The notes beneath the pieces are model-generated. The model searched no databases and was not told the DNA's origin. It saw only the letters and a program-made list of their open reading frames with translations. Shown here piece by piece: positions 19,185-63,068 of a DNA stretch of 63,282 nucleotides. Both the position numbers and the translations under genes were made by a program. Source of the stretch: Methanomassiliicoccaceae archaeon (GTDB lineage Archaea > Thermoplasmatota > Thermoplasmata > Methanomassiliicoccales > Methanomethylophilaceae); assembly GCA_016284295.1 (NCBI GenBank), contig JAEEOP010000021.1, positions 1 to 63,282 on the forward strand. The letters run 5' to 3'. Every line of letters begins with the position of its first letter. The first letter of the stretch is position 1.

Positions 19185-19607
19185 TCACCTCTCCTTTCCG
19201 CACGTTGCCATGTCGGGTTTGTCGAACATGTTGCGATCCTTTGTGAGAAGGATGTCGTTGACCATCTTGAGGGACTCGGCCATGCGCCTCCCCTTCTTCG
19301 TCAGGCATACCTTCCTTGCGCGGCCGTACGGCTAGTATCCGATGATGTCCAACCGTTCCATCAGCTCAAGCTTGTCATGGCAGTTCTTGTCGACATACCT
19401 GTAGAACTCCGTCAGGACGATCGGGTTCTCGTAGAGGATGACGAGGTTCGTCAGCATGTGGGGGCGCTCCAGCTACATCACGCCTCTGAGGTCCAATTCT
19501 GCTTCGATCACGTTCATGTAGGAGGGGCGCACATCGGAATCGAATACGATGCCGTTTCTGCAGGTATTGGCCCTAGTCCGGGCCCTGAAAAGATATTCGC
19601 CTTTCAT
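19185..19607 (-). CDS. Winged-helix transcriptional regulator with two in-frame UAG codons
   Basis: Reading from ATG 19607 to TGA 19185 gives 140 residues if UAG is sense. UAG occurs at codon 45 (19473-19475) and codon 92 (19332-19334). Around the second, the text reads LELMERLDIIGY-UAG-PYGRARKVCLTKKGRRMAES, a typical winged helix: recognition helix, wing, then the LTKKG wing-end motif of MarR/ArsR-like proteins. The middle (MLTNLVILYENPIVLTEFYR) supplies the first helices. Both UAGs must be decoded for a whole DNA-binding domain. A decayed gene is the alternative, but no frameshift or other stop is present. Confidence 0.72.
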
Positions 19608-19709
19608 AGAGCCTGACTGTTTGCACTATTATAAGTTGTTTCATCATTAATTTACTGAAATAAGACCTTAGAATGACTCAGTTCCGACCATTCATTTCCG
19701 GGCAGGGGA

Positions 19710-20075
19710 TCAGCGGATGTCATATCCTTCCTCTGCCAGGGAATCCTTCGCTCTTTCGAGATTCGCCTCGCGGACGAGAATGTAATCCGTGTCGAACGTA
19801 GATAGCGCGAAGATGCCTATGCCGTTGTCAGCCAGGATGGTCGAGATCCTCGACAGTATCCCTATCAGAGACAGGTCGAGGGGGCCGACGATCATGAGCG
19901 CGCGCCACCCGTCATCCCTTTCGGTGGCGGAGGACGGTACGTCCTCCTCAGGGCATACGAGCGAGACCTCGTTCCTGGTCCTGCTGATGAAGTACAGATC
20001 CCTCTCAAGATTGAGGCCGTAGGCCGAATCCAATTTGCAGATGGACAGCCTCTCGGTAAGTACTTGCAATTCCAT
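19710..20075 (-). CDS. ACT-domain protein (CASTOR-like)
   Basis: About 121 residues from ATG 20075 (MELQVLTERLSICKLD), the usual start for this family; an in-frame ATG at 20126 would add 17 residues. The N-terminal half reads DLYFISRTRNEVSLVCPEED, and the C-terminal half is an ACT repeat (IVGPLDLSLIGILSRISTILADNGIGIFALSTFDTDYILV). Family members bind amino acids as small sensor proteins. What this one senses is unknown. Divergent from the TerB-like gene. Confidence 0.8.
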   Translation of the reverse strand: MELQVLTERLSICKLDSAYGLNLERDLYFISRTRNEVSLVCPEEDVPSSATERDDGWRALMIVGPLDLSLIGILSRISTILADNGIGIFALSTFDTDYILVREANLERAKDSLAEEGYDIR

Positions 20076-20193
20076 GTTATCGGCCGGGCAATCGAATCCG
20101 GGATGATAAACCGTATGATGGGCCATGGTGGCATTGGCGCTATGTTCCCGGTCCTCAACAACTTCTTAATTACGTTTAAGCGATACTCGTCCC

Positions 20194-21054
20194 ATGAGCG
20201 ATTTCGACACTCTATGCAAACAGCTCGAGAGCATGGACCCTGAGACATTCAGGGACCTGTTCAATGAATTGTCAGTGAAGGTCACATCTCAGATGGTGGA
20301 CCTCGCAGGGAAGGACGGTCTTTCCGCCTACCTCAACTTCATCCTCGCATCCGTCGCGGCCGACGGACACATGACCGAGGAGGAGTTCCAGCTGCTGAAA
20401 CCCATCTTCGACAGCCTCGCGGAGAAGGACCTCACCTACGAAGAGGGGGTCGCCGTCTTCAATGCGCTCGGCCTCGACCAGCCCGAGTCATTCCAGAAGG
20501 TAGTCGACACCATGGTCGATGTCCTCGGACTCGTATCGGACGAACTGAAGGACGACATCGTCATGCTCTGCCTCCTGGTCTGCGCCATCGACGGAGAGGT
20601 CTCCGACAAGGAGAAGGCGTGGATAAAGCAGCTCATCGATCCGCTGGTCATCTGCGTGCCCGCGCTCGAGGTCATCGACGGATTCCTCACGGAGGCCGGA
20701 TCGTTCACGCTGGCCACCACCTGCCGCGATCAGCCCAGGATGAGGGTGCTCGGCCTCAAGATCAGGCTCGACGGAAACCTGTACTTCGCAGTTGGAACGT
20801 TCAAGGACGTCTACAAGCAGCTCCAGGCCAACCCGAAGTGCGAGATCCTCGCCACGGTCGGAACGGACTTCCTCCGCTGGGACGGAAAGGCGATGTTCGT
20901 CGAGGATGTCAGGCTCATGCCCATCGTCGAGAATATGATGCCCGACATCGCAAAGACGTACGCCCAGAACGGTTGGGAGTTCGGATTCTTCACGCTGGTC
21001 GATGGAACCGCCGAGATCGTCAACGTGTCCGGCCAGAAGAAGAAACTGTTCTGA
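20194..21054 (+). CDS. TerB-like domain fused to a pyridoxamine-oxidase-like flavin barrel
   Basis: 286 residues. Residues about 1-155 are all-helical, with the paired acidic TerB-type repeats LASVAADGHMTEEEFQLL and LVCAIDGEVSDKEKAWI. Residues about 165-286 read SFTLATTCRDQPRMRVLG ... GNLYFAVGTFKDVYKQLQANPKCEIL, the split-barrel flavin/heme-binding fold of the PNPOx-like family. The combination is unusual. A TATA-like TTAATTACGTTTAAG is about 25 bases upstream, so the mRNA may be nearly leaderless. Function unknown, perhaps a redox or stress sensor. Confidence 0.8.
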   Translation: MSDFDTLCKQLESMDPETFRDLFNELSVKVTSQMVDLAGKDGLSAYLNFILASVAADGHMTEEEFQLLKPIFDSLAEKDLTYEEGVAVFNALGLDQPESFQKVVDTMVDVLGLVSDELKDDIVMLCLLVCAIDGEVSDKEKAWIKQLIDPLVICVPALEVIDGFLTEAGSFTLATTCRDQPRMRVLGLKIRLDGNLYFAVGTFKDVYKQLQANPKCEILATVGTDFLRWDGKAMFVEDVRLMPIVENMMPDIAKTYAQNGWEFGFFTLVDGTAEIVNVSGQKKKLF

Positions 21055-21057
21055 AAC

Positions 21058-21079
21058 GGGAAGGGGTCTCCCCCCTCCC
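21058..21079 (+). terminator. Hairpin terminator after the TerB fusion gene
   Basis: GGGAAGGGG pairs with CCCCCCTCCC across a TCT loop, 3 bases after the stop, followed further on by a T-rich run (TTTTGGTTTTTTC). Confidence 0.55.
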
Positions 21080-21122
21080 AATCTTCGTCATTTTGGTTTT
21101 TTCCCGATACAGGTACGTGACC

Positions 21123-21389
21123 ATGAGATGCAAGGTATGCGGTTCCGAGAGCTTCAGGATGAAGTACGGGAAGTACGAGTGCAACCGCTGCGGTGCCAGA
21201 TACGGTCCGGACAAGATCCCCAAGGAGGACCGGGCGCCGAAGGGTCCCGCGACCTCTGCTCCCAAGAAGGATGCAAATCGCATCAACACGGCGAAGTCCT
21301 CCGGCAGCAGTGTTCCGTGGAAAGCCGTCGCACTCGTCGCTGCTGTTGCTATCGTCATCGGAGCGATAGCTGTCTGGAAACTGATGTGA
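21123..21389 (+). CDS. Zinc-ribbon protein with C-terminal membrane anchor
   Basis: 88 residues: an N-terminal zinc ribbon (MRCKVCGS ... YECNRCGARYG; two CXXC pairs), a basic/Pro/Ala linker, and one C-terminal helix (AVALVAAVAIVIGAIAVWKL). This tail-anchored topology puts the ribbon in the cytoplasm. Small zinc-ribbon membrane proteins of this kind are common in archaea and mostly uncharacterised. Confidence 0.8.
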   Translation: MRCKVCGSESFRMKYGKYECNRCGARYGPDKIPKEDRAPKGPATSAPKKDANRINTAKSSGSSVPWKAVALVAAVAIVIGAIAVWKLM

Positions 21390-21409
21390 ACAGAACGGGG
21401 TGGCTGGAA

Positions 21410-21442
21410 CCGGGAGCGCTGCACGGACATCATCGCTCCCGG
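21410..21442. terminator. Strong inverted repeat after the zinc-ribbon gene
   Basis: CCGGGAGCG and CGCTCCCGG, perfect 9-base-pair arms with a 15-base loop, 20 bases after the stop. A terminator or processing signal is likely; there is no T-run immediately after it. Confidence 0.5.
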
Positions 21443-21846
21443 CACCAAAGTGATTGGATGGATCTAAGATTGCGGAGATGTCACGATGTCCGGAGTGAAC
21501 GGACATGAGTTGCATCACCGCGTTGTTCAACGCAATATTAGAAAGATTTGACCCATCGCTCGGAAGATGTATGATATAATATTGACTGGCTGAATAAAAG
21601 TAAAGACGAATCAACATATTAGTCTAAACTTATTTAGGATTTCTTAAAATATTATAGTCACCATAATGCGATATCGTCCTGCCGGTATTGAAGATCAAGC
21701 ATCGATTTCACCATCCGATGGTAACTTGCGTTGGCTAGAACGCATCTACATTCCACGCCGTGCAGGATTCATGCCCTAGTATCTTATGCGCAATCGCTAA
21801 GTCAAAATCAAATACCTACTTATCTGACCAAGTTCTTTCTTTCATC
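21443..21846 (+). other. Gene-poor 400-base stretch before the Sel1-repeat gene
   Basis: No convincing gene on either strand. The left part has a small hairpin (TGTCCG-GAGTGAA-CGGACA, 21488-21506). The middle (about 21570-21660) is very AT-rich with several TATA-like blocks (ATGATATAATATTG, CTTAAAATATTATAG). The right part is mixed composition. It may hold a promoter with a long leader or a small RNA; the sequence alone does not decide. Confidence 0.4.
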
Positions 21847-22719
21847 ATGGCAGACAATTTCGACCAGCTTGTTGTTAAGGCGTCTGAAGGTGACGCACAG
21901 GCTCAGTGTGATCTAGCAGGTTTCTACTACGATATCTTTGATGAGCGTTTCGACCCCGAGGTCGCGGCCAAATGGTATCTGAAGTCTGCCGAACAGGGTA
22001 ACGCTGAGGCGCAGTTCATGATCGCCAGGATGTATTCCTGGGGCGACGGCGTGGAGGCCTCTACTGAAGAGGCCGTCAAATGGTACAAGCTCGCCATAAA
22101 GCAGGGTAACACCGATGCTATGTGCGATCTTGCCAGCATGTACCTCTTCGATCCCGATTTCAAGAGATCCAAGGCGAAGGGGATAAAGCTCTACGCGGAA
22201 GCCGCGGACAGGGGCAACTCCGAGGCGCAGTACTTCCTCGGCCTGATGTACCTGGACGGGGAGCTCGTCGAGCAGTCCTACGACAGGGCGAAGGACCTGT
22301 TCGTAAGGGCGGCGGAGCAGGAGAACCCGTACGCGCAGTTCGACCTCGGAGAGATGTACTTCGCAGGTACCGGTGTCAAGAAGTCCAAGAAGACCGCATT
22401 CAAGTGGTACATGAGGTCTGCGGAGAACGGCCACGCTCTGGCCCAGTACGCCATAGCGAGCATGTACTTGGAAGGAAAGGGCGTGAAGCAGTCCTACAAG
22501 GATGCGTTCAAGTGGATGAAGAAGTCCGCGGAGCAGGGGGTCACCAGCGCCATGTACGACCTCGCTCTCCTGTATCACTACGGTACCGGTGTCAAGAAGT
22601 CCAACAAGGAGGCCTTCAGGTGGATGAGGATGGTCGCGGACGAACTCTTCGAGGATGAGGAGCTCTACGACCTCGACATCGACGGGGCCAACGAGGAGCA
22701 GGAATCCGAGGAGGAATGA
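21847..22719 (+). CDS. Sel1-like repeat protein
   Basis: 290 residues made of about seven Sel1-type TPR repeats of about 36 residues, each with the A-x-WY/L-x-x-AA/SAEQGN-x-x-AQ-x-x-LG/IA-MY pattern (e.g. AAKWYLKSAEQGNAEAQ, AFKWYMRSAENGHALAQYAI), then an acidic tail (EEQESEEE). There is no signal peptide from ATG 21847, so it is probably a cytosolic protein-interaction scaffold. The frame stays open upstream to 21760, but that extension looks non-coding. Confidence 0.88.
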   Translation: MADNFDQLVVKASEGDAQAQCDLAGFYYDIFDERFDPEVAAKWYLKSAEQGNAEAQFMIARMYSWGDGVEASTEEAVKWYKLAIKQGNTDAMCDLASMYLFDPDFKRSKAKGIKLYAEAADRGNSEAQYFLGLMYLDGELVEQSYDRAKDLFVRAAEQENPYAQFDLGEMYFAGTGVKKSKKTAFKWYMRSAENGHALAQYAIASMYLEGKGVKQSYKDAFKWMKKSAEQGVTSAMYDLALLYHYGTGVKKSNKEAFRWMRMVADELFEDEELYDLDIDGANEEQESEEE

Positions 22720-22728
22720 TGATCCTTC

Positions 22729-22753
22729 TGGCCGGAGGGGGTCCTCTCCGGCC
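22729..22753 (+). terminator. Hairpin terminator after the Sel1 gene
   Basis: TGGCCGGAG and CTCCGGCCA form a perfect 9-base-pair stem with a 7-base loop, followed by TTTTCT. It lies 10 bases after the stop. Confidence 0.7.
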
Positions 22754-22835
22754 ATTTTCTCGTATTGTTGATTTTTCTGGACTTATATAAACAGAGAAAC
22801 TCATTTTTGTTACATATTGCATATTTTAGTGCATG

Positions 22836-22847
22836 ATATATTTAAAT
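22836..22847 (+). promoter_or_regulatory. TATA box of the dockerin/ABC importer operon
   Basis: ATATATTTAAAT, a near-ideal archaeal TATA box in a short AT-rich gap. A start about 25 bases downstream would leave a leader of roughly 28 bases before the ATG at 22895, which has a GTGAT ribosome-binding site. Confidence 0.65.
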
Positions 22848-22894
22848 CAAAGCTTCCTATGAAGTCGATTGGATTAGAAATCCAAGTGATTCAG

Positions 22895-24262
22895 ATGGAT
22901 AACAAGATTATGACAATCGTGATCGTTGCCATCGTTGCAATCGCTGCAGTCGCGATCGTGTTCGTGGCCCTCAACAACAACGGGGGCAGCGGAGGCGGAA
23001 GCGACCCCGTCGTGGGAGACGAGGCGACAGTGGTGATCTACGGCAACGCCAACAACGATTCCTACATCAACAACGACGATGTGAAGTTCGTCCAGGACAT
23101 CCTCGCCGGAAAGTTCGCATGGGACCGCTCCAAGAATCCCTTCGCGGATGCCAACAACGACGGACAGATCACATCCGCCGATGTCGACCAGATCAAGATG
23201 ATCATCAACAACCAGGAAGGCAAGATCTACTACCTCAACTACTTCGGAGAGGCCCAGCAGATCTCCTACCCCCTGAAGAACAGGACCATCGCCGTGACAT
23301 ACTGGCAGCAGGCCGAGGCGGCAGCCATCCTTGGACAGTGGGACAACGTCAAGGTCGCCAACGCATACGTCACGCAGATCAAGAAGAACCAGTACCCCTG
23401 CGACGGCATCATCGAGGTCGGTACCACCGGAAGCAGCGCCAAGTCCGTGGACGACAACGGTGTCTCCGCCATGATCAAGGCCGGAGTCAACCTCATCCTC
23501 GCCACCCCCACATCCGCCGTCAAGACCGGATGCGAGAAGGTCATCGTCGACGGAGTTCAGGCGGATGCGATCTACCTTTGGCACATGGGTAACTCCTCCA
23601 TCCCCACGATCCTTACCATGGGAATCATGTTCGACGAGGAGGAGAGGGCCGAGAAGTACGCCAAGTTCTGCTACGACCTCATCGATAAGGTCGAGGGCAA
23701 GCTGAAGGGACACGACAAGCTCGACATCATCGTCACAACGTTGTACGCCAACCAGGCATCCAGATCGGATATCACCGTCTGCTCCGGAGTTGGAAGGGAG
23801 GGTACCTGTACCGTCCTCCAGTACCTCGGTAACGTCTACAACAACTGGACCGGAATCAACGATTTCGGAATGGCATCCTATCAGAAGGACTGGTTCCTCG
23901 GAGAGGGCGACAAGTTCGATGTCAACTTCATGGTGTATTCGTCCGTCGACCAGTTTACCTACGACCAGGACAAGTTCAACGATTACTTCATGGACTTCAT
24001 CAGTTACTTCAAGAACACCAAGGCCTACAACAACCACGGAATGATGGGAGCGCCCTACATCTTCGCAGGATACTCCGGATTCTCCATGATGATGTACGCG
24101 GCCTGGATGATGTACCCCGATCTCTTCACCCTCGAGGATGCGCAGAACACCCTCCAGACCTGGTTCGACACCTTCACCGTCGCCAAGGTCGATGTGAAGA
24201 ACGACGCCGTCTGCTTCTACACCGGCGACGAGTACGAGACCCTGTACAAGGGCAAGTTCTGA
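22895..24262 (+). CDS. Dockerin-bearing substrate-binding protein of a FecCD-type importer
   Basis: 455 residues from ATG 22895. A signal anchor (about 5-27) and Gly/Ser linker are followed by a dockerin type I-like domain (about 45-105) with two Ca-binding repeats, NANNDSYINNDDVKFVQDI and DANNDGQITSADVDQIKMII. The rest is a BtuF/FepB-like binding protein (TWQQ-like ITVTYW region, NVKVANAYVTQIKK, ILATPTSAVK). The permease and ATPase follow on the same strand. It probably captures a cobalamin, heme or siderophore-like ligand. A dockerin on a solute-binding protein is odd (see findings). Confidence 0.88.
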   Translation: MDNKIMTIVIVAIVAIAAVAIVFVALNNNGGSGGGSDPVVGDEATVVIYGNANNDSYINNDDVKFVQDILAGKFAWDRSKNPFADANNDGQITSADVDQIKMIINNQEGKIYYLNYFGEAQQISYPLKNRTIAVTYWQQAEAAAILGQWDNVKVANAYVTQIKKNQYPCDGIIEVGTTGSSAKSVDDNGVSAMIKAGVNLILATPTSAVKTGCEKVIVDGVQADAIYLWHMGNSSIPTILTMGIMFDEEERAEKYAKFCYDLIDKVEGKLKGHDKLDIIVTTLYANQASRSDITVCSGVGREGTCTVLQYLGNVYNNWTGINDFGMASYQKDWFLGEGDKFDVNFMVYSSVDQFTYDQDKFNDYFMDFISYFKNTKAYNNHGMMGAPYIFAGYSGFSMMMYAAWMMYPDLFTLEDAQNTLQTWFDTFTVAKVDVKNDAVCFYTGDEYETLYKGKF

Positions 24263-24319
24263 GAACGTTCAGCTAAACCCCTTCCCTAAACCCTTTCCAT
24301 GAAATGAAAGAGGGATCAG

Positions 24320-25429: not shown

Positions 25430-25431
25430 CC

Positions 25432-26642: not shown

Positions 26643-28019
26643 TCAGAGCTTCCTCTCGGTCACCATGCTCACGTAGGCGGGACGGATGATCTTGTTGGAC
26701 GAGATCGTCTCCTCAAGGTGGTGCGCGCACCATCCGACGGACCTTGCCACTGCGAACATCGGTGTGTAGAGGTCCTCGGGGATGCCGAGCATGTCGTACA
26801 CGAATCCGCTGTAGAGGTCGATGTTGGCGCAGATCGCCGATGCGTTGGGGTGCTTGGCCTATATGAGGGGCGGTGTGAGCTCCTCGATGAGCTCGTACAT
26901 CCTGAACTCGGATTCGCGGCCTTTGTTGCTCGCCAGATCCTTCACGAACTTTTTCAGGATGACGGCACGGGGATCTGAAAGAGTGTACACGGCGTGTCCC
27001 ATGCCGTAGACGAGCCCGGCACCGTCGAACACCTCCCCTTTCACGATCTTCGAGAGGTATTCGCGCATCTGGTCGGGGTCGTTGATGTCCTCCACGTTCT
27101 CCCTGATGTCCGAGATCATCTTGGACACCTTGTGGTTGGCACCGCCGTGCTTAGGTCCCTTCAGGGACATGAGCGCTGCGGAGATGACGGAATACGTGTC
27201 GGATCCGGCGGAGGAGACGACCCTTGCGGTGAACGTGGAGTTGTTCCCTCCTCCGTGCTCCATGTGCAGGACCAGCACCCTGTCGAGGGCCATGGCCTCC
27301 AGCTTGGTGTAGCTCCCGTTGGGGCGCAGCATGAGGAGTATGTTCTCGGCGATCGTGAGTTCCGGGTCCGGGTCCTTGATGTAGAGGGCCTCCCCCAATT
27401 CATAATGGGAGTATGCGCGGTACCCGTACACGGCCATCGCCGGCATCGAGGAGATGATGTTCATCACGTGTTCCAGATTGTCCTTCGGTGTGCTCATCGC
27501 AAGGTACTTGTCGTAAAGTGCCAGGTTCAGCACTCCGCGCGACAGCGTGTTCATGATGTCGAATCCGTTGTCCCTGAGGATGACCTGCCTGACGAATCCG
27601 TTGGGGAGCCCCATCTGGCCGTTCAGGAACGATCTGAATTCCCTGAGCTGTTCCTCGTTGGGGAGGTCGTTGAAAAGAAGGAGATAAGCGCATTTCTCGA
27701 AGAGACCCAGCTCGTTCTCGTTCATGCGGATGAGGTCGTTGACGTCGTACCCCCTGTAGAGCAGACGTCCCTCGCACGGCTCGGTCTTCCCGTTGTTGTT
27801 CACGGTGCCTTGGACCTTGGATATGTTGGTGATCCCGGCGACCACCCCTTTCCCGTTGCGGTCCCTGAGTCCTTTCTTGACGTCATGCTTGATGTAAAGC
27901 TCCGGAGATATGTCGCTGTCGTTGATACAGGCCTCCGACCTTTCCTGCAGGAATTCCTCGTATGTGCGCAAGATACCATCCTCTCGAAGAAGACACGATA
28001 CTTCGTTCGTCTCTAACAA
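26643..28019 (-). CDS. gltA: Citrate synthase with one in-frame UAG codon
   Basis: Condenses acetyl-CoA with oxaloacetate. With UAG read as sense the protein has 458 residues from TTG 28019 to TGA 26643. UAG is codon 387 (26859-26861). Before it are the catalytic His of KGPKHGGANH (about 291) and of GMGHAVY (about 342). After it, the frame continues AKHPNASAICANIDLYSGFVY, whose Asp (about 401) is the third catalytic residue, and ARSVGWCAHHLEE, the conserved phosphate/CoA-contacting stretch. Termination at UAG would remove both. The TTG start is weak: a TATA box 20-30 bases upstream implies a leaderless message; an in-frame TTG lies further in. Confidence 0.9.
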
Positions 28020-28721: not shown

Positions 28722-29849
28722 ATGAGGTTCGCACACATTTCTGACCTTCACCTGGGAAAGAGGCTGAAGGAGAGGTCGTTGGAAGAGGATCAGAGGCATA
28801 TCCTGAAGGAGATCGTGAGGATCTGCACGGTGGAGAAGGTGGACGGTGTCCTGATCGCCGGGGACGTATTCGACGACGGCAACACGTTCACCAACGAGGC
28901 GTCCGCGATGCTTGATGATTTCCTGACGGAGCTTTCCGAGAGAGGTCTTCCCGTCTTCATGATCAGCGGGAACCACGATTCCATGGACAAGCTGAACTTC
29001 GGTTCGAGGATGTTGAGGAAGAGCGGTCTGTACATCTCCAGCGTGTTCTCCGGAAAGGCGGACAGGTATCCGCTGACGAAGGACGGGTAGACCGTCGACA
29101 TCTATTTACTGCCTTTCATCAAGCCCGTCCACGTCAAGAGGGCCTACCCCGACGAGAGGATAGAGACGTACGAGGATGCGATCAGATGCGTCCTGGAGCA
29201 TTCCGACCGTTCGGACAACAAGAAGATTATCGTGTCGCATCAGACGGTGCTCGGCGGAGGGGCGATGCCGGAGCTGTCCGATTCGGAGAGGGCGTTCATC
29301 GGCGGCAGCGAGTCCATCAACTCATCGGTCTACAGGGATTTCGACTATGTCGCATTGGGCCACATCCATTCCCCTATGAACATGGGTTCAGAGACGATCA
29401 GGTACTGCGGCGCTCCGCTGAAGTATGCGCTGTCCAGGAAGGAGAAGGACAAGTCCGTGACAATCATCGACATCGATGAAGATGTGAAGGTCAGCACCGT
29501 GCCGCTCAAGCCTTTGCATGATGTGAGGATTCTCAAAGGTCCTCTGGACAAGCTCATAGAGGAGGGTAAGAACGATCCCAACAGCGACGACTACATCGGT
29601 GTCCATCTGGAAGGATTCGAGATGAACCCGATGGAGAAGCTCAGGGAGGTGTACCCTAACGTTCTTGCCATGGAATATGTCAAGACCGGGGAGCAGTCAG
29701 GCTCGCTGATAGAGGACATGGACCTCGAGAAGCTGGATGCGGACGAGGAGTTCGAGAAGTACTTCAAGTCCAAGACAGGGGAGGAGATGACCGAATCCCA
29801 GAAGAAGCTGATCCATGACCTGTTCGAGGCCAACGGGGTGGTACTCTGA
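28722..29849 (+). CDS. sbcD: SbcD/Mre11-type nuclease with one in-frame UAG codon
   Basis: 375 residues if UAG (codon 123, 29088-29090) is sense. Metallophosphoesterase motifs before it: ISDLHLG (Asp8, His10), GDVFDD and SGNHDS. Motifs after it: the VSHQTV His and ALGHIHSP, needed to complete the two-metal site. The junction reads ADRYPLTKDG-UAG-TVDIYLLPFIKP, smooth for the family. It repairs double-strand breaks with SbcC, which overlaps its end. A product stopped at UAG would be an inactive 122-residue fragment. Stop is TGA. Confidence 0.92.
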
Positions 29850-32800
29850 AGCCGCACAAGCTGATCATGTGTGCCTTTGGTCCGTACGCCGGCTGCCAGG
29901 AGATAGACTTCGATAAGTTCGGAGGCAGAGGCCTGTTCCTGATCACCGGAATGACCGGTGCCGGTAAGACCACGATCTTCGATGGGATCACATACGCATT
30001 GTACGGAGAGCTCAACGAGAGGGATCCCAACTCCGTCCGCAGCCATTTCGCGGACCCCAAGGACGAGTCGTATGTCCAATTGGATTTCACGCATGATGGG
30101 AAGGCATACAGGATCAGAAGATCCCCGAAGCAGACGAGGAAGAAGCTCAGAGGCACCGGCGAGACCACCGTCGGGGAATCTGTCACGCTCATGTTCGACG
30201 ACAAGACCCTCACCGGAACCACGGCTAACAAGAAGATCGTCGAGATCATGGGCATTGGCGCGAACCAGTGGAAGCAGATCGCCATGCTCCCCCAGGGGAA
30301 GTTCAGGGAGCTCTTGACAGAGAGCACTATCGAACGTACCAAGACGCTGCGCACTCTGTTCAACACCGCAGCCATCGAGAGCTTCCAGAACGACCTGTCC
30401 GAAAAGGCCAAGGCGGTCCAGAAGGCGGTGGACGATGCAGAGCAGCGCATACTCGGATCCATGGACTCCATCGAGATGCCGGAGGGCAGCGAGCTCGCCA
30501 AGGAGCTGGAATCCAAGAAGGGTCTGGTGTACATAGATGAGGTCTATGGCATAATCTCCAGGCAGGACAGTTCGGACGACGACCTCTTGAAGGTCCTGAA
30601 GGACGAGTTCAATGGTATCCAGAATGAATGGGCCAATGTGAAGGCCGACAGGGACAATGCGAGCACCATCAACAGGAACCTCGACGAACTCGTAGCTAAG
30701 AGGAAGAGGCAGGGCGAGATGGATCTGGTGATGCCGGAGATCGATGCCAAGGAGCAGCGCTCCAAGGAGATCTCGGAGGCCGTCAAGGTCTTCAAGACTC
30801 CGCTGACCGACTGCAGGAGGGCGGATGCCCAGCTCAAGGAGCAGGTGAACCGCATCGCCGATGCGGAGGAGAGACTGAAGGTCGCCAAAGAGGCGCTGTC
30901 CGAAGCGGAGGAGACTCAGAAGGAAGCATCCAAGCAGGCCCCGAGGTCGAAGGAGATAGATATCGAGATACCGAAGCTCACGGAGATGAGAGGTGCCTAC
31001 ACAGAGATCTCCCTGTTGGAATCCAAGATCGCAGAGACCGAATCATCCAAGCATGATGCCGATTCGAGATTGGCGGAGGCCGAAGAGAAGCTCAAGGCGC
31101 ACATCCAGAAGACTGATGAGTACAGGGCCTTCCTGAAGTCCCACGAGAACGATGATGCCAAGAAGAATTCATTGTTGACGCAGAAGCAGGAGATCTCGAC
31201 CAGGCAGAGCGCCATCGAGAAGGTCCAGAAGGATCTATCCAAGCATGATAAGGAGTATTCGGTCAACACCGATCTCATAAAACGCAGGCAAGAGGCCGAA
31301 GCGGCGGCGACCGGCAAGTCCATGAAATTCACCGAGATGCAGAGAGCCTATTTCGCAGCATCCGCGGGCCGTCTGGCCGAAGGGCTGCAGGAAGGGGCCC
31401 CGTGCCCCGTGTGCGGTGCCGTCCATCACCTGAAACTGGCCGAAATGCAGGCCGGTGCACCTACCGACGAAGAGTTGGAGAGGCTGAAGGGAGAGGTCGA
31501 CGACCTGGCAGCGAAGGCCGAGGAGGCCCGCAAGGACCAGACGGAATCGTCAACAAGGCTGAAGGGCATCCTGGACAACATAAAGACCAGGCTGGCCGAC
31601 GAGCTCCAGATCGAGTTCACGGATGTCATATCCATCAAGAACGATATGATGGAGGCCTCCAAGACCAACAAGGCGACGATCAAAGCCATCGATGCCCAGA
31701 TCAAGGAACTCGAGCCGTTCATCGCTCAGGTAGATAGCATCCGCGCAGAGTTCGATGACAGGGACAGGGTCAGGGACGAACTGACCGAGTCCAAGAATGA
31801 AGCGATAAAGGAATCCGTTTCGTTGGAAGCTCAGCTGGGGCAGCAGAGGTCGGAGTTGGAGAAGAAGCGCTCCGGATTGCAGTTCTCCTCACTTGAGGAT
31901 CTCGATGCGGCCATCGAGGCCATGACCAAGGAGAAGCAGGAGATAGATTCGAGCATCGAGGCAGCCGACTAGGCCGTCGAATCCCATAGGGCCGAAGTGA
32001 GCAATCTGGAAGGAAAACTGGCAGCGGTCATCGGACAGAAGGCCGAGTTCGAGAAGGTCTCGGAAGATGCCCGCAGGATGTATTCCGAGCTGCTGTCCTC
32101 CAAGGACATCACCGAGGAGCGCGTCGGGGAACTTCTGGCATCCGAGCTGGAGATCGAGTCACTGGATTCCGAAGTGGCAGGATTCAGAGAAGAGTACAGG
32201 ATGAATTCGGCCCTCATAGAGAAGCTGGCCGAGGACACGGCCGGCAAGGAGAAGGTCGATCTCACCGTGCTGGACGAGAGCCTTAAGGACCTGAAGACGA
32301 GGTCCGACAGCAAGAACTCTGAGATCTTTGCAGTGAACCAGCGCAAGTCCAAGAACGATGAAGCCAGGAAGAGCATCCGGAAAGGGATGGAGGAGTACGA
32401 CAGTCTCGGCACCGAATCCAAGGACCTGAAGAAGCTCAACCAGGTGGTTTCCGGTCCGGAATACATCAGGCAGTCCTTCGAGGCCTACATCCAGGCACTG
32501 TACTTCAGACGCGTCCTCGCGTTCGCCAACCAGAGGTTCTCCAAGCTGACCGACGGCAGGTTCGAGCTCCAGATCCGTAACCCCGCCAAGGACGGGACGT
32601 CGAAGATAGGATTGGACATCGATGTCCTGGACAACTACACGGGCACCACCCGCAAGGCGGACACTCTGTCGGGAGGGGAGTCGTTCAAGGCCGCACTGTC
32701 GCTGGCCCTTGGTCTGTCGGATGCGATCCAGACGATGAACGGCGGCATCCACATCGACACCCTGTTCGTGGACGAGGGATTCGGATCCCTCGACCCTGAA

Positions 32801-32968
32801 TCGCTGGCGATGGCCATCGAGGTCCTTCACGACCTGTCGGACGGCAACGCCCTGATAGGCATAATCTCGCATGTGGACGAGCTGAAATCCGAGATAGATA
32901 GGAAGATCGTGGTCTCCCACATCGACGGCGGTCTGAAGGGCAGCAAGGCGGATGTGACCATCGATTGA
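29846..32968 (+). CDS. sbcC: SbcC/Rad50-type SMC ATPase with one in-frame UAG codon
   Basis: 1040 residues from CTG 29846 (CTGA overlap with the sbcD stop; gives KPHKLIMCAFGPYAG, the usual family opening) or 1033 from ATG 29867. Walker A GMTGAGKTT lies near residue 37, the coiled coil carries zinc hook CPVC at about 520-523, and UAG is codon 709 (31970-31972) in the returning coil (SIEAAD-UAG-AVESHRAEV). After it come the signature LSGGESFKAALSLALG and Walker B TLFVDEGFGSLD. UAG termination would lose half the ATPase head, so readthrough is essential. Confidence 0.92.
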
Positions 32969-48468: not shown

Positions 48469-49206
48469 ATGGCAGGAACCTGTACAGTAGTGATCCCCAC
48501 GTTCAACGAAGAAGGCAACATCGCCAACATGGCGAAGACCCTCAGGGAGCTCTATCCCGATTTCTAGGTCGTCTTCATGGACGACAACTCCAAGGACAGA
48601 TCGAAGGAGCTCATAGAGGCCTTGGGCGACCCTAAGGTCAGGATCGTCGTGAGGGACCCTCAGGACAGGGGGCTCTCCGCCAGCATCTTCCAGGGTATCG
48701 CGGAATGCAAGACCGATTACTTCATGGTCATGGATTGCGACTTCCAGCACCCTCCCAGCGTCCTCGGCCCCATGTACAAGGAGATGGAGAACGGCGCCGA
48801 CATGGTCATCGGCAACAGGGAGGACAGGTTCGCCCTCGGTTTCATCCGCTGGCTCGGATCATGGGTGTTCACGATATTCGCCAACCTCTACCTCTTCTGG
48901 CACCGCAAGACCCTGTCCAAGGACTGCATGAGCGGTCTGTTCGGGGGCAGGGCGGAGATCATCTCCCCGATCATCAGGGAGAACTACAATCAGATGGAGA
49001 GGCAGGGATGGAAGGCCCTGCTCGACATCCTGAAGTTCGGTCCCAAGGGCATGAAGATCGCCAATGTGAAGTACAAGTTCGGCAAGAGGGCTGAGGGCGA
49101 ATCCAAGATGAACCCCAAGATCGTCCTCCACACCTTCAACCAGCTGGGATTCTGGGGAAGGTTCTGCATGAAGGTCTACGGCGGTCTGAAAGGGACCAAG
49201 CTCTGA
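48469..49206 (+). CDS. GT2 dolichol-phosphate sugar synthase-like, one in-frame UAG
   Basis: 245 residues with UAG as codon 33 (48565-48567): MAGTCTVVIPTFNEEGNIAN ... LYPDF-UAG-VVFMDDNSKDRSKEL. The first strand lies before UAG, and the catalytic acidic motif (DDNSKD) and MVMDCDFQHPPSVL (DXD-like DCD) lie after it. The family moves mannose or glucose from a nucleotide sugar onto dolichyl phosphate. If UAG stopped translation only 32 residues would be made. The start ATG 48469 has no clear ribosome-binding site; an internal ATG at 48577 would omit the essential N-terminal strand. TGA stop; convergent with gtrA. Confidence 0.87.
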
Positions 49207-56075: not shown

Positions 56076-56088
56076 CTTTCAAAGTTCT

Positions 56089-56415: not shown

Positions 56416-56500
56416 TTTTTATTCGGGGGTATTTGGAATGAAAATGCATTTTAATTTGGGGGTAATTGCACACAAAATGCATTTTAATTCGGGGGTAACG
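56416..56500. repeat. 33-base tandem repeats (2.6 copies)
   Basis: Units start at 56416, 56449 and 56482 (the last cut after 19 bases). Shared core TTTTAATTCGGGGGTA then variable sequence ending AAAATGCA. They lie between the ATPase remnant and the DUF368 gene's end. Iteron-like spacing of three full helical turns suggests protein-binding sites. Confidence 0.75.
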
Positions 56501-56521
56501 CAGACCCGACCGAGGGAGGAT

Positions 56522-57406: not shown

Positions 57407-57426
57407 CCAAAAGGAAGGGGTCAGCC

Positions 57427-57436
57427 TTTTTATATC
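57427..57436. promoter_or_regulatory. Divergent TATA box, DUF368 and L7Ae operon
   Basis: TTTTTATATC on the plus strand (GATATAAAAA on the minus) in the gap between two divergent transcripts. Spacing predicts a leaderless DUF368 message and a leader of about 65 bases before L7Ae. Confidence 0.6.
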
Positions 57437-57456
57437 ACTATAAGATAGGGCGGAAT

Positions 57457-57504
57457 GCTCTTACAGAGCCGATGAATGATGAAGGCGTCTTTGAACGCCT
57501 GAAA
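57457..57504 (+). promoter_or_regulatory. Leader hairpins with kink-turn-like element before L7Ae
   Basis: Two hairpins in the predicted leader: GCTCT-TAC-AGAGC (57457-57469) and AGGCGT-CTTTGA-ACGCCT (57483-57500). The second is flanked by GA on both sides, preceded by ATGAT, the layout of tandem sheared G-A pairs and a bulge in a kink-turn. L7Ae binds kink-turns and is known to repress its own mRNA through one in other archaea, so feedback control is likely. The outer stem is weak. Confidence 0.55.
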
Positions 57505-57516
57505 GAGGTAATTGAA

Positions 57517-57882
57517 ATGTCTGTATTTGTTAGATTCGAGACTCCTAAGGAGGTCTCCGACAAGGCATACGCTCTTGCTGAGGCAGCAAGGGATGGCGGA
57601 AAGATCAAGAAGGGAACCAACGAGGTCACAAAGGCCGTCGAGCGCGGATCCGCAGCCATGGTCATCATGGCCGTCGATGTCGAGCCCCCAGAGATCCTCG
57701 CCCACATGCCCGCACTCTGCGACGAGAGGAACGTTCCCTATGTGTACGTCCCCAGCAAGGTCGAGCTCGGAGCAGCCATCGGACTCAACAAGCCCGCAGC
57801 ATCCGTCGCCATCATGGACGTCGGAAAGGGAAAGGCACTTTGTGAAGAGATCGCACAGGCTACCGCAGCACTCAAGAACTGA
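57517..57882 (+). CDS. rpl7ae: Ribosomal protein L7Ae
   Basis: 121 residues from ATG 57517 ([18 protein letters not shown]), ribosome-binding site GAGGTAA. RNA-binding region [20 protein letters not shown] and the [27 protein letters not shown] core are typical. Also a kink-turn-binding subunit of box C/D and H/ACA RNPs and RNase P. First gene of an L7Ae-S28e-L24e-Ndk operon. Confidence 0.97.
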
Positions 57883-57892
57883 GGTGAGCTGA

Positions 57893-58105
57893 ATGGTCGA
57901 CACTGACAGCATCCCTTCCGAAGTCGTTGAAATCATCGGAAGGACCGGAATGACCGGCGAGGCAACTCAGGTCAAGGTCCGTGTCCTCGATGGTCGCGAC
58001 AAGGGAAGGATCATTACAAGGAACATCATGGGTCCTGTCAGAATGGGCGACATCCTCATGCTGAGGGAGACGTCCAGAGAAGCCAGGAAACTGGGTATGA
58101 GGTGA
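57893..58105 (+). CDS. rps28e: Ribosomal protein S28e
   Basis: 70 residues, OB-fold: [58 protein letters not shown]. The C-terminal LRETxREAR is the family signature. Ten bases after the L7Ae stop with a GAGGTGAG site. Confidence 0.97.
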
Positions 58106-58110
58106 TTTCG

Positions 58111-58332
58111 ATGGTAGACACAACAAGGAAATGCTCTTTCTGCGGTGCTCCCATCGAGCCCGGTACCGGAAAGATGTACGTCAAGAAGGACGGAACTATC
58201 CTGTTCTTCGACGCCAACAAGTGCTACAAGAACATGATCCAGCTCAAGAGGGTCGCCCGTACGACCGAGTGGACCGAGAAGGCAGCCGTGGAGAAGGCTG
58301 CAAGGCTCAAGGCGGCCGAGAAGAAGGAGTGA
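58111..58332 (+). CDS. rpl24e: Ribosomal protein L24e
   Basis: 73 residues from ATG 58111 (GAGGTGA 5 bases upstream; GTG 58102 overlaps S28e). Zinc finger start [21 protein letters not shown] and [10 protein letters not shown]. The second zinc pair is incomplete: only the Cys of NKCYK is visible where CXXC is common. Confidence 0.95.
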
Positions 58333-58337
58333 ATTCC

Positions 58338-58793
58338 ATGGCAATGGAGCAGACCTACCTCATGGTGAAGCCCGACGGAGTCCAGCGCGGACTCTGCGGC
58401 GAGATCCTCTCCCGCTTCGAGAAGAAGGGTCTCAAGATCGTCGGACTCAAGTTCATGGTCATCCCCAAGGAAGTCGCCGAGAAGCACTACGGCGAGCACA
58501 AGGATAAGCCCTTCTTCCCTTCGCTGATCAACTACATCACCTCCGGGCCTGTCATGGCGATGGTGCTCGAGGGAGAGGATGCGGTCCAAATCTGCAGGAA
58601 CATGATGGGCAAGACCAAACCCATTGAGTCCGCACCCGGTACCATCCGCGGCGATTATGCCATGGTGACCGGCTGCAACATCATCCACGGATCGGATTCG
58701 GTAGAGTCCGCCAAGAGGGAGATCTCCATCTTCTTCAAGCCCGAGGAGCTTGTCTCTTACGACAGGACCGCGGACAAGTGGATCTACGAGTGA
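58338..58793 (+). CDS. ndk: Nucleoside diphosphate kinase
   Basis: 151 residues. [41 protein letters not shown], and active-site His in [16 protein letters not shown]. Transfers the gamma-phosphate from ATP to NDPs. Last gene of the ribosomal operon, 5 bases after L24e, followed by a strong terminator. Confidence 0.97.
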
Positions 58794-58816
58794 ACTCGTT
58801 GGACGTAAACTATCAA

Positions 58817-58847
58817 GGGACGGACGGACCCCTGGGTCCTCCGTCCC
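58817..58847 (+). terminator. Terminator of the L7Ae-ndk operon
   Basis: GGGACGGA and TCCGTCCC pair perfectly; inside, GGACCC and GGGTCC pair around CT, giving a near-continuous 14-base-pair stem. AT-rich ATATTATCGATTTTTG follows. Strongest hairpin in the window. Confidence 0.8.
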
Positions 58848-58919
58848 ATATTATCGATTTTTGATTGTCTGGAACTGTGCCAAGTCTGTTGTCGTATTGT
58901 TCTGTGCTGGTCGAGTATC

Positions 58920-59345
58920 GTGGTTCGAAGTATACTGTCATCACGGGGACAGGTTCGTGTTCCTTATGGAATTCGCTCTAAAACAGGAGCTGGTGGGAAA
59001 TATCCCAGTGAGGGACGATTACGGCCGCATCATTTACGATCCGTAAGGTAAGACGGTGACGGAGGATGCCGACATGGACGTGGTGACTACGACTCGCAAC
59101 GCGAACAACCGCATCGATCTGTTTGCCGAATGCAAGTTTAGCAACCGCAAAGCATCTCTCACGACGCTGAATAACTTGCGGAGGAGGGTATCGTACCCAA
59201 GAGGCGGGTTCAATGTCCGTCACTGCCCGATATCGGTTAGCGGTTTCGAGGACGGCAGCAGGAGTATGCCGAGGAGAAAGGCATTATGCTGATAGATACG
59301 GATATGACCGCGGGCAAGGTGCAGTATCCGGAACTGTTCCGATGA
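58920..59345 (+). pseudogene. Decayed C-terminus of an archaeal DUF234-type ATPase
   Basis: Fragments in order: FLMEFALKQELVGNIPVRDDYGRIIYDP, a TAA stop at 59044, EDADMDVVTTTRNANNRIDLFAECKFSNRKASLTTLNNL, then after a shift near 59255, YAEEKGIMLIDTDMTAGKVQYPELF to TGA 59345. The DLFAECKF stretch is the C-terminal nuclease-like signature of these ATPases. The AAA+ half is gone. TAA, not UAG, is the interrupting stop, so recoding does not rescue it. Confidence 0.72.
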
Positions 59346-59411
59346 GGGACGGACCCGCCGTTCGGCCAGATATTCCATCGATGTCCATGAGGTGGGGTCC
59401 GGACCCTCATC
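59341..59411. repeat. Long imperfect inverted repeat before aIF5B
   Basis: Arms GATGAGGGACGGACCC (59341-59356) and GGGTCCGGACCCTCATC (59395-59411), one extra base in the right arm, 38-base loop. It lies at the end of the decayed ATPase and could be a terminator for it or a mobile-element end. Confidence 0.6.
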
Positions 59412-59522
59412 AGCGGTGTGAAATCCTCCGGATGGAAAGCTTTTTTACTCATCCGCCTTTGCCTGGACAAACACTTTTTATATGCTGTAAAAACAATTTT
59501 GATTGCATGGATTGTGGTGGCT

Positions 59523-61271
59523 ATGGCGATAAGACAACCGGTTGTGAGCGTTCTCGGTCACGTAGACCATGGAAAGACGAAACTTCTTGATAGGATCAGG
59601 GGAACCTCGGTTCAGGCCCGCGAGGCAGGTGCCATCACGCAGCACATAGGTGCCACGGAGGTCCCCATCGAGCACATCTACAAGGTATGCAACCAACTTA
59701 TAGGGAACAAGAAGTTCGACGTTCCCGGTCTGCTTTTCATAGACACTCCAGGCCATCATTCTTTCATCACCCTCCGCGCAAGAGGAGGTTCCCTCGCGGA
59801 CATAGCCGTCCTCGTCATAGACATAAGGGAAGGCATCATGCCTCAGACCATCGAATCCATCAGGATCCTCAGGCAGTACAAGACACCGTTCGTCATAGCT
59901 CTGAACAAGGTGGACACCATAGAGGGATGGATATCCGAGGAGGGAAGGCCGTTCATTCTCTCAGAGAAGAAGCAGCAGGCCCATACCCTCGAGGTCTTCA
60001 ACGATAAGCTGTACACGGTCATCGCCCAGCTGTCGGATCAGGGGATATATGCCGACAGGTACGACAGGATAGACGATTTCACCAAGAATGTGGCTTTGGT
60101 CCCCATATCCGCGAAGGAGGGCGAGGGTGTCCCAGACCTTCTGCTTGTCCTGATAGGTCTGGCACAGCGCTTCCTTGAGTCCCAGCTTGAGAAGGGTGAG
60201 GGGCCCGGCAAAGGTACGATATTGGAGATAAAGGAGGAGAAGGGGCTAGGCAAGACCCTCGACATGATCCTCTATTCCGGTACGATCAAGAAGGGCGACA
60301 TGGTTGCACTGGGAACGAGGGGCTCGCCCGTCGTGACCAAGGTCAAGGCGATCCTCAAGCCTAAGCCTTTGGATGAGATCCGCGATCCGAGGGACAGGTT
60401 CGATTCGGTCCCGGTATTGCATGCGGCCGCCGGGGTGAAGATCTCATGTCAGAACGTCGAGGGGGTAATCGCCGGTGCGCCTATGATCGTCGTCAAGAAC
60501 GAGAAGGATCCGGCAATCAAGACGCTCCAGGAGGAGTCCACGGTCAAGATCGAGACCTCCGAGAGCGGTATATCCATCAAGGCGGATGCCGTCGGTTCCC
60601 TGGAGGCCCTTGCCTTCGAGGCCAAGGCCAACAATATTCCCATCAGGAAGTACGGTGTGGGAGAGATAACCCGCAGGGATATCGTCGAGGCGGCCTACGG
60701 GGATAAGAAGAACTGCGTCCTGCTGGGATTCAATTCGACGCTGTCCAAGGATGCGGAGGCGGAATTGGCCAATCATCCTGAGCTGAAGGTACTCACTAAC
60801 CAGATAGTATACAAGCTCATCGAGGACTACCTGGAGTGGGTGGACGAGTCCAAGAGGCTGGCCGAGGGTGACAAGAGGGCCGAGTTCTCGTTCCCTGCGA
60901 AGTTCAAGATACTTCCCAACTGCATATTCCGTGCCAGCAAGCCGGCCATCGTCGGCGTAAGGGTGCTGGCTGGAAGGATAAGGCCGGGGGAGAACCTGAT
61001 CGGTCCCGACGGACGCGACTGCGGTAGGATAAAGTCCATTCATACGGGCGATGAGACCCTCAAGGAGGCCAAGCAGGGCGACGAGGTCGCCGTCGGCATA
61101 GAGGGCGTGACGGCTGGCAGGCAGATCAACGAGGAGGACGTAATCTACGTCGACCTTATAGGATCGTCCATTAAACCTCTGAAGGAGATGGACCTGAATG
61201 ACGATGAGAAGATGGCTCTTGAGGAGGTCATCGCCATAAAGCGCAGGGAAGAGCCGTTCTGGGGAATGTGA
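59523..61271 (+). CDS. infB: Translation initiation factor aIF5B (IF2-like)
   Basis: 582-residue GTPase promoting subunit joining. G1 GHVDHGKTKLLD, switch I REAGAITQHIGATEV, G3 IDTPGHHSF, G4 NKVD, G5 SAKEGEG, then domains II-IV. The archaeal signature of no long N-terminal extension is met. ATG 59523; TATA box CTTTTTATATGC at 59472-59483 gives a leader of about 15-20 bases. No intein (a known insertion site is intact). Confidence 0.97.
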   Translation: MAIRQPVVSVLGHVDHGKTKLLDRIRGTSVQAREAGAITQHIGATEVPIEHIYKVCNQLIGNKKFDVPGLLFIDTPGHHSFITLRARGGSLADIAVLVIDIREGIMPQTIESIRILRQYKTPFVIALNKVDTIEGWISEEGRPFILSEKKQQAHTLEVFNDKLYTVIAQLSDQGIYADRYDRIDDFTKNVALVPISAKEGEGVPDLLLVLIGLAQRFLESQLEKGEGPGKGTILEIKEEKGLGKTLDMILYSGTIKKGDMVALGTRGSPVVTKVKAILKPKPLDEIRDPRDRFDSVPVLHAAAGVKISCQNVEGVIAGAPMIVVKNEKDPAIKTLQEESTVKIETSESGISIKADAVGSLEALAFEAKANNIPIRKYGVGEITRRDIVEAAYGDKKNCVLLGFNSTLSKDAEAELANHPELKVLTNQIVYKLIEDYLEWVDESKRLAEGDKRAEFSFPAKFKILPNCIFRASKPAIVGVRVLAGRIRPGENLIGPDGRDCGRIKSIHTGDETLKEAKQGDEVAVGIEGVTAGRQINEEDVIYVDLIGSSIKPLKEMDLNDDEKMALEEVIAIKRREEPFWGM

Positions 61272-61586
61272 GCGTTCGTCATTACCCCAGTACGTGGGCT
61301 TGATTTATGCCGAGTACAGTCTGTATGTTCAAAGGCGCTTGAGGATCCCTCTTTCAGAGGGCTGCAGATGTAACATATTGTCATGGACACGTCGATAGTT
61401 GGGAATCTGTGTCTAGGGTGCGTAAAAGAAGGTCATGGCTAACGTATCATGCAGATGGATCGCACAGGATAAATGAGGAGTTATAACCTGAGTTCGCCAT
61501 ATACGCGTGACCTTCGACCTGGCATCCGCTGAGATCATCGGTTGCGTATACACGTCCGCGCGTTCTCAGTTATCCTTTTCGGATGT
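61272..61586. other. 315-base gap between aIF5B and the transposase gene
   Basis: One small hairpin at 61347-61361 (CCCTCT-TTC-AGAGGG) may end aIF5B transcription or the convergent transposase. I see no gene. The right end probably contains the left boundary of the insertion sequence, but I could not match terminal inverted repeats by eye. Confidence 0.4.
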
Positions 61587-63068
61587 TCAGAACCCGTCGA
61601 GAACGGTCTGTCCGGATGCCTTCGGCACCGGAACAGGCCTTTCCCGACCCAAAATGGCCCTGAGAATAGGTCCATAGTTGCTCCATACCCGCTTCTTCTC
61701 CCCGTTCCTCCTCGTGAAAACCGTAAGTGTGAACGAGGTCAGCTCCTCGGATATGGATTCCGCGGTCTACGACCCGAACTGAGGATACAGGAACCTGATC
61801 ATGCTCATGCAGAACAATGCTAGGAAACTGATCAGGATCCTGCCCCTTATCGACTCCTCCTTCGTACATCTGGCCGGTCTCCAGTCTATCCCGTGCTTGA
61901 GATCCCTGAACGCGGTCTCCACCGCGTTCCTGTCACGATAGTATCTCAACGTCTCCTCAGCTGTCAACGGACGGTTCGTTATGAGTACGAAAAGTCCCTC
62001 GCGGCCAGTCACCATACGCCTGACAGCCTCGTCTATCGCCTCTTCTCTGGTCCTTCCTATCAGCGGGAACTGATAGGATAGTTTGGTATCGACGAAACAG
62101 TTCGAGTTCCTGTGTTTCTTCCTGGGCTTCTTCCCTGTGTTCAAGGCCGCCTTCATCTCCTCCATCTCATCGTAATCGTGTTCAGCTTTGCACCGGTACC
62201 TGTACATGATGTCCGCTTTCAGCTTCTCGTTCTTGAACATATATCTCCTGCGTTTCAGATTGCCCTCCCTGAAGAGATACGATACCTGGTCATCGATGGG
62301 GATCCAATCATTTCTGTGCACTTGGACGAACGTGTCATCCGATGTGTTTATCTGCTGCCTGGTCACAAAACCCAATCCTGCCTTGTCCAGTATGGCAGCA
62401 TTGTCGCGCGAGTATGCTCCATTATCAAATACGATCATCGAATCCTTCCTCAGCAGCGGTCTGATCTGTTCGAAGCTATCCTCGAAATGCGTAACATCCA
62501 TCATATTCCCCGGATTCACGGTCAACCCGATAGGCATCCCCGAATCCCTGTCCATTGCCAATCCCGCAGTCACCTGCGGCCTGTCCGGTCTGTGGTCCCT
62601 GGAATATCCCACCTTGATGAAATCGTTCTGAGGGGCCTCGAAATACATGGAGGTCCAATCCAAAAACACGGTATCCATACCGATGCCATACGACTGCTTC
62701 AACCTCCTGCCCAGGAACTGCACTATCTCATCCGAATGCTCTCCAACGCGTTCAACGGTACGGTATACGGACCTGGCAGCTCCGCTGCCGAGTCCGTACT
62801 CCTTTCTGAACTCCTTCCTCCCTATCATCCTGTCCAGTCTGTTGACTGATATGCCTGTCATCTCAATCGAATTGGAGACCAATGCCCTGATCTCGTTCGA
62901 TACCTTCTCTCCCTGATTCCTCTTCAGATCGTCGAGAAAAGAATCCAACCCCATATCCGAGAAAACTGCATCCACGATGACCTTGTTGCCCATGGTCATC
63001 GAGAAATTATCGTTAGGTTCCGGTATCCTGATGTTTATGTTCCTGCGTCTCTGGACCAAATCATACAC
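61587..63068 (-). mobile_element. IS1634-like (IS4-group) transposase gene with one in-frame UAG
   Basis: 493 residues from GTG 63068 to TGA 61587 with UAG sense; UAG is codon 434 (61767-61769). DDE triad region: VFLDWTSMYF (first Asp), IVFDNGAYSRDNAAIL (second), and YRDRNAVETAFRDLKHGIDWRP (catalytic Glu). UAG follows RFLYPQFGS, and 59 residues then run TAESISEELTSFTLTVFTRRNG to TGA. The tail is coherent, suggesting the element lives in UAG-reading hosts. Upstream frame closes at TAA 42 bases before the GTG. IS ends not resolved. Confidence 0.8.

Follow-up and report, generated by a model that had tools for sequence, protein, structure and literature searches.

Is UAG read as an amino acid in ordinary genes of the archaeon from which the present stretch of DNA was taken? 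The stretch (the window, 63,282 nucleotides; contig JAEEOP010000021.1 of assembly GCA_016284295.1, Methanomassiliicoccaceae archaeon) contains six genes, encoding a winged-helix-like regulator, citrate synthase, SbcD, SbcC, a family 2 glycosyltransferase (GT2) and a transposase, that are interrupted by UAG (TAG in the DNA), and the original prediction, made from the letters of the window, was that UAG serves in these genes as a sense codon. The window, contig C21 in our numbering, was analyzed together with the rest of its draft genome (G000; 1.86 Mb in 45 contigs, 95% complete) and with the genomes of relatives. As judged from sequence, UAG is almost certainly a rare sense codon for pyrrolysine in this organism, given that a pyrrolysine (pyl) cassette is present, that UAG is nearly absent as a gene end, and that homologs carry ordinary residues at and beyond the UAG sites. 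Specifically, we put at roughly 0.93 the probability that the host of the window is a methanogen of the Methanomethylophilaceae, a family that the NCBI taxonomy places within Methanomassiliicoccales, and that it decodes UAG as pyrrolysine via a standard pyl cassette.

The seven UAG codons and the six genes that contain them

All seven UAG codons lie in frame at the predicted places (for genes on the minus strand, the prediction gave the low base of each codon), and each of the six interrupted frames carries on to a TGA, as predicted, with no TAA or TGA earlier in the frame. Genes were called with a home-made, codon usage-based caller trained on the window's own genome, and the count for the window was limited to genes of at least 80 amino acids. 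With TAG treated as a sense codon, 55 genes were found in the window, of which 52 end with TGA, 3 with TAA and none with TAG, and six hold the seven TAGs. Thus, the prediction that no gene of the window ends with UAG stands, whereas the accompanying figure of roughly 70 genes ending with UGA or UAA exceeds the 55 found by this caller. When TAG was treated as a stop, 4 of 56 genes ended with it, and for all four, a homolog extends beyond the TAG. Alignments with homologs pass through six of the seven sites, the best hit having a sense residue at five of these and a gap at one. Past the TAG, the fraction of residues identical to those of the best-hit relative is 43/70 in citrate synthase, 54/100 in SbcD, 33/100 in SbcC, 70/99 in GT2 and 37/59 in the transposase, and these same five names are supported by a Pfam search. 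Codon usage after the TAG is as coding-like as that before it in five of the six genes.

In the citrate synthase gene (26643..28019, minus strand; 458 codons if the most upstream start is taken, ending with TGA), the TAG at 26859-26861 is codon 387, and the PF00285 match, over residues 57-448, runs across it. Among the 28 alignments of relatives that pass this site, 12 have M, 9 have L, 2 each have R and T, 1 has Y and 2 have a gap. Similarly, in the GT2 gene (48469..49206, plus strand; 245 codons, ending with TGA), the PF00535 match, over residues 6-154, runs across the TAG at 48565-48567 (codon 33); K or R occupies the site in 20 of the 30 alignments that pass it, and in eight relatives of the same genus, the codon is AAG. 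At the other end of this gene, a homolog of family f2 (locus L214, a 370-codon frame) aligns for about 30 residues beyond the TGA at window position 49204, which suggests either a gene fusion in that relative or a split in the window.

The two DNA repair genes are neighbors on the plus strand. In sbcD (28722..29849, encoding an Mre11-type nuclease and ending with TGA), the TAG at 29088-29090, residue 196, is covered by the Metallophos domain (74-291), and SbcD_C (337-424) lies further downstream; the three best-matching relatives have E, encoded by GAG, at the site, the next one has L, and the others mostly have G. In sbcC (29867..32968, encoding a Rad50-type ATPase; 1033 codons, ending with TGA), the TAG at 31970-31972 is codon 702, with the SbcC_Walker_B domain downstream of it (925-988), and the near full-length relatives are stop-free at the site.

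In the gene for the DDE transposase of an insertion sequence element (61587..63068, minus strand; 493 codons, ending with TGA), the TAG at 61767-61769 (codon 434) follows the DDE_Tnp_1 domain (131-419). Codon usage past this TAG is not coding-like, yet the homolog in a relative extends 59 codons further. A copy in genome G019 is 59% identical, covers residues 4-493 and has M at the TAG site. Related transposase fragments were also found elsewhere in the window's own genome (G000:C20:444-1824 and C20:50378-50785), with an in-frame TGA in two of three matches; unlike the TAG-holding copy of the window, these look like broken copies of the insertion sequence.

The gene of the winged-helix-like regulator (19185..19607, minus strand; 140 codons, ending with TGA), with TAGs at 19473-19475 and 19332-19334, is the least secure of the six cases. 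The downstream coding score is 0.52 per codon, and a search of 40 relatives gave weak homologs in 11 (best E = 8e-9), but the Pfam search returned no match. Three loci of relatives (L184, L183 and L177) cover both TAG sites and are stop-free in the aligned part; the wider winged-helix matches at these loci each hold one TGA or TAA inside.

Across the TAG sites, the relatives have variable residues, several of them K or E, including codons one base away from TAG. In the alignments, TAG at the seven window sites is confined to this genome; in relatives, single TAGs are found elsewhere in the same genes, namely, in citrate synthase of G018 (near the start), G006 and G017, in SbcC of G017 (position 300) and in the transposase of G019 (position 371). 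Such scattered positions would be expected if a tolerated codon drifts.

UAG at the ends and inside of genes in the genome and its relatives

A sample of 423 kb (23% of the genome, window included) was analyzed for stop codon usage, along with 80-109 kb from each of 16 relatives in which genes were called likewise; the p values below come from Fisher's exact test and are a guide only, genes and genomes not being independent. Under the standard code, of the 362 genes in the 423 kb sample, 323 end with TGA, 30 with TAA and 9 with TAG; UAG ends are, as expected from the original prediction, nearly absent. Six of the 9 TAG-ended genes have a coding extension past the TAG and 3 lack one by score. 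One of these 3 is the window transposase, which is extended by homology, as described above; the other two are C3:128258-128560, in which a TGA follows seven codons after the TAG, and C36:48592-49164, for which four weak alignments run past the TAG, with D at the site (best E = 2e-5). Thus, no gene of the sample certainly ends with UAG.

Four genomes of the order in which pylS was not matched (G036, G028, G030 and G026) have 10, 14, 8 and 13 TAG-ended genes, respectively (10-19%), and TAG ends without a coding extension are significantly more frequent in these four genomes (43/304) than in the window's own genome (3/362; p = 1.4e-12). Nine of the sampled relatives belong to the same genus, and pylS was matched in all of them but G003; in these nine, 0 to 5 genes each end with TAG (0-6%), and TAG ends without a coding extension total 8/806 (p = 4.7e-18 against the four genomes without a pylS match). 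In pylS-bearing genomes from another family of the order, the fraction of TAG ends was 2% (G029), 24% (G032) and 12% (G035).

For the analysis of internal TAGs, two antisense-looking calls (C36:11528-11890 and C3:158373-159182, together holding 6 TAGs) were excluded. With TAG as sense, the remaining 358 genes (328 ending with TGA and 30 with TAA; 124,234 codons) contain 15 internal TAGs in 14 genes, making TAG the rarest codon. The genes are of unrelated function; in addition to the six of the window and mtmB, they comprise a second citrate synthase (G000:C36:23360-24709), a pyridoxal phosphate (PLP)-dependent decarboxylase, a 2-hydroxyacid dehydrogenase (TAG at C44:77642, 22 codons into the gene), a TPR protein of 1154 residues, a small protein whose weak winged-helix match falls just short of the cut-off, one gene without a Pfam match, and C3:128237-128560. 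By extrapolation from 14 genes in 23% of the genome, roughly 60 genes of the whole genome would have an internal UAG. The two citrate synthases are about 53% identical and have one in-frame TAG each, in different places; the copy on C36 is up to 88% identical to those of relatives, in which the TAG site is occupied by K in 16 and by R in 7 alignments.

To count as running on, a homolog from 2.4 Mb of relatives' DNA had to extend at least 15 residues beyond the stop, with at least 30% identity there. The comparison was restricted to sense-frame stops; an all-frame version, in which 14 TAG, 6 TGA and 1 TAA were spanned, was discarded given the contamination by antisense frames. Of the 22 TAG, 323 TGA and 30 TAA sites, an upstream homolog was available for 15, 237 and 18, respectively, and ran on in 13, 47 and 2 cases. 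After exclusion of the two antisense-looking calls, there were 16 TAG sites, 11 with an upstream homolog, 10 of which ran on; in the best hit, 8 of these 10 sites have a sense residue, 1 has a gap and 1 keeps the stop (mtmB). Among the TGA sites that ran on, the best hit has a sense residue in 10, a gap in 5 and a stop at the same place in 32; the last group reads as a neighboring gene in the same frame. Of the 18 TAA sites, none ran on with a sense residue, both cases that ran on having a stop at the same place.

Counts of internal TAGs in the relatives are inflated, and therefore, the relatives' samples were used for gene ends only. In G018, at least 4 of the 12 internal TAG sites are ones where homologs, too, carry a stop codon. 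Judging by their motifs, these look like methylamine methyltransferases. Several internal TAGs of G017, G018 and G020 fall in antisense-looking calls. G012 and G003, both of the same genus, have at least three TAG sites in common outside methyltransferase-like genes (two of them follow NDALEAER and VEVQDKDR); if the genes called there are real, some TAG sites may be conserved between species.

The pyrrolysine cassette, the release factor and competing readings

The pyl genes for which the original prediction called are all present and adjacent, on contig C36 of the same genome, in the order mtmB(UAG)-pylT-pylS-pylB-pylC-pylD (1411-6935). The mtmB gene (C36:1411-2793; MtmB PF05369, 692 bits) has an in-frame TAG at 2014, and a stop codon is found at that place in all 11 alignments of relatives that pass it. 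It is followed by the gene for tRNA-Pyl, pylT (C36:2996-3066; 71 bases, anticodon CTA, i.e. CUA), which lies just ahead of pylS (C36:3084-3905). Scored against curated NCBIfam cut-offs, PylS (C-terminal family TIGR02367) reached 260.9 bits (cut-off 178.15), PylB (C36:3911-4966) 437.7 bits (348.2), PylC (C36:4966-6126) 313.8 bits (248.3) and PylD (C36:6159-6935) 194.3 bits (150.05). No other CUA anticodon was found among the 41 tRNA places of the genome, 40 of which were typed by ARAGORN and 1 by eye. The latter is a tRNA gene with an apparent intron (L363:1501-1607), missed by ARAGORN, in which we read the anticodon as CAT; tRNAs for Trp and Tyr are not among the 41 tRNA matches of the draft.

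The cassette was not recovered throughout the relatives. In G003, there is no pylS match at the E limit of 1e-30, and pylB (C13:273-1292) starts 273 bases into its contig, so that an assembly gap may account for the missing pylS. In G002 (61% complete), pylB is above the cut-off but pylS was not matched, and G006 (82% complete) has neither a pylS match nor pylB above the cut-off.

A single copy of the archaeal release factor aRF1 above the cut-off was found in 38 of 41 genomes, that of the window included, and none in the other 3. From these 38 matches, 30 proteins from 31 loci were aligned (G001 was left out), and NIKS, YxCxxxF and GGQ, which we take to be the stop-reading and catalytic motifs, are kept in all 30. 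A release-factor change was considered as the mechanism, but no alteration was found in the three motifs. Some differences around NIKS are fixed in the genus. In this region, the 14 aRF1 proteins of family f1, compared to the 16 others, show substitutions at otherwise nearly constant positions: A replaces S two residues before the motif and M replaces A twelve before it, while A replaces L eighteen and C replaces V/I thirty-six residues after it.

Several observations weigh against the reading of UAG as a sense codon for pyrrolysine. The release factor of this genome is among those with all three motifs kept, and with the stop-reading motifs intact, leaky termination at UAG could still occur. 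C3:128258-128560 and C36:48592-49164 may actually end with TAG. Run-on support is lacking for 6 of the 16 TAG sites: at five of these (19475 in the winged-helix gene of the window, C3:51825, C3:128260, C3:28182 and C7:27713), no upstream homolog was found in the 2.4 Mb of relatives' DNA, and at C44:77642, in the dehydrogenase gene, an upstream homolog is present but does not run on. The codon usage-based caller yielded some antisense artefacts. Finally, the tRNA search overlooked pylT itself, so that an atypical second suppressor could have been overlooked as well, in an assembly that is about 95% complete.

Among the alternatives, the strongest contender, albeit an unlikely one, is that UAG is ambiguous, i.e. 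an efficient stop in many contexts, whereby most of the product is a truncated protein and some inefficient or regulated read-through inserts pyrrolysine. This possibility overlaps with the preferred explanation, from which it differs in the completeness of decoding. The intact aRF1 motifs fit it, as do the two ambiguous TAG ends left in the sample and the rarity of TAG (15 of 124,234 codons), which is compatible with a cost of use. However, truncation would cost SbcC its Walker-B domain, citrate synthase its last 71 codons and GT2 almost its entire length (25-32 codons precede the TAG), whereas the downstream parts are conserved and terminal TAG is nearly absent.

Far less probable is that a different suppressor tRNA inserts one of the standard amino acids (Lys, Gln or Leu, for example) at UAG. 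In relatives, the sites are indeed often occupied by K, R, E, L or M, and a draft assembly could miss a tRNA gene, all the more conceivably with a search that passed over pylT; against this, the genome has a complete pyl cassette, and the only CUA anticodon seen at the 41 tRNA places checked is that of tRNA-Pyl. Furthermore, it is established, and stated in PMC3941956, PMC4153887 and PMC5011839, that methylamine methyltransferases carry pyrrolysine at UAG. The last alternative, namely, that decaying genes have acquired nonsense mutations or that the TAGs stem from sequencing errors, is comparably improbable and was rejected. In its favor, transposases are a common type of pseudogene and this one is not coding-like past its TAG; in addition, the winged-helix gene matched no family, and the assembly is a draft in 45 contigs. 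Against it, TAG accounts for all seven interruptions, the same frames being free of TAA and TGA up to their ends; the downstream parts are conserved; codon usage there is as coding-like as upstream in five of the six genes; central genes are hit; and each of the citrate synthase matches with an internal stop (3 in relatives plus the 2 of this genome) has one TAG and no other stop.

With UAG read as pyrrolysine, the following scenario can be proposed. The pyl cassette would be on at all times and terminal UAGs would have been largely lost in the group; UAG would then have entered genes by drift, codons such as AAG, GAG and CAG having changed by one base at tolerant positions, and it would be translated there as pyrrolysine in competition with the motif-intact aRF1. 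In this competition, tRNA-Pyl would prevail over an ordinary-looking release factor at a codon with hardly any remaining use in termination. Whether this amounts to a half-way codon capture, whereby UAG ends were emptied in the genus, including species with hardly any internal UAG, and the codon was refilled here by pyrrolysine in roughly 60 genes, including the two citrate synthases and SbcCD, with no loss visible in the stop-reading motifs of aRF1, appears to us evenly balanced.

Known users of pyrrolysine and the place of this genome among them

The use of UAG as a sense codon in the window's host is not new in kind; it is a further case beside 'Ca. Methanomethylophilus alvus' and methanogenic archaeon ISO4-H5. 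Thus, the idea of the original prediction is correct and well supported, but it is less novel than thought, members of the same order having already been published as doing so. Kivenson and colleagues (Science, 2025) reportedly described an archaeal 'Pyl code', in which TAG is the 62nd sense codon, for pyrrolysine, proteome-wide and in several lineages, with proteomic support; compared to that code, where TAG is always sense, the present case is known from sequence and two TAG ends are ambiguous.

A close parallel is 'Ca. M. alvus', which, according to the available parts of PMC4153887, has a pyl cassette as well, and whose genus Methanomethylophilus is placed by NCBI in Methanomethylophilaceae, the same family. 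In the same account, TAG makes up 1.6% of its stops and 16 pyrrolysine proteins beyond methylamine methyltransferases are predicted, some of them highly conserved. In contrast, in the 23% of the genome sampled here, 13 genes other than mtmB have an internal UAG, for example, both citrate synthases, SbcC, SbcD, GT2, the hydroxyacid dehydrogenase, the PLP decarboxylase and the TPR protein. For ISO4-H5, the accessible sections of PMC5011839, which assign it to the order Methanomassiliicoccales, give 46 amber-containing genes, among them genes of core metabolism and 10 insertion-sequence elements; NCBI lists it as unclassified Thermoplasmata, and both the organism and the gene set differ from those described here. 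Methanomassiliicoccus luminyensis is alike in belonging to the same order, having a pyl cassette and using pyrrolysine in methylamine methyltransferases; there, UAG ends about 11% of the genes and, in the available text of PMC3941956 and PMC4153887, no further pyrrolysine proteins are predicted. The portions of PMC10804542 and PMC8629427 that were accessible contain nothing on UAG in ordinary genes of the order.

The present analysis extends the small set of archaea in which UAG serves as a 62nd sense codon by one species, for which the genes are listed explicitly. In this genome, about one gene in 25 (14/358) would come out split or truncated under standard annotation. Citrate synthase, SbcC and GT2 provide concrete candidate sites for pyrrolysine outside methylamine metabolism. 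The order is a natural series in which to study stop-codon capture: UAG is a common stop in the absence of pyl, appears to have been emptied in this genus and to have been refilled in this species.

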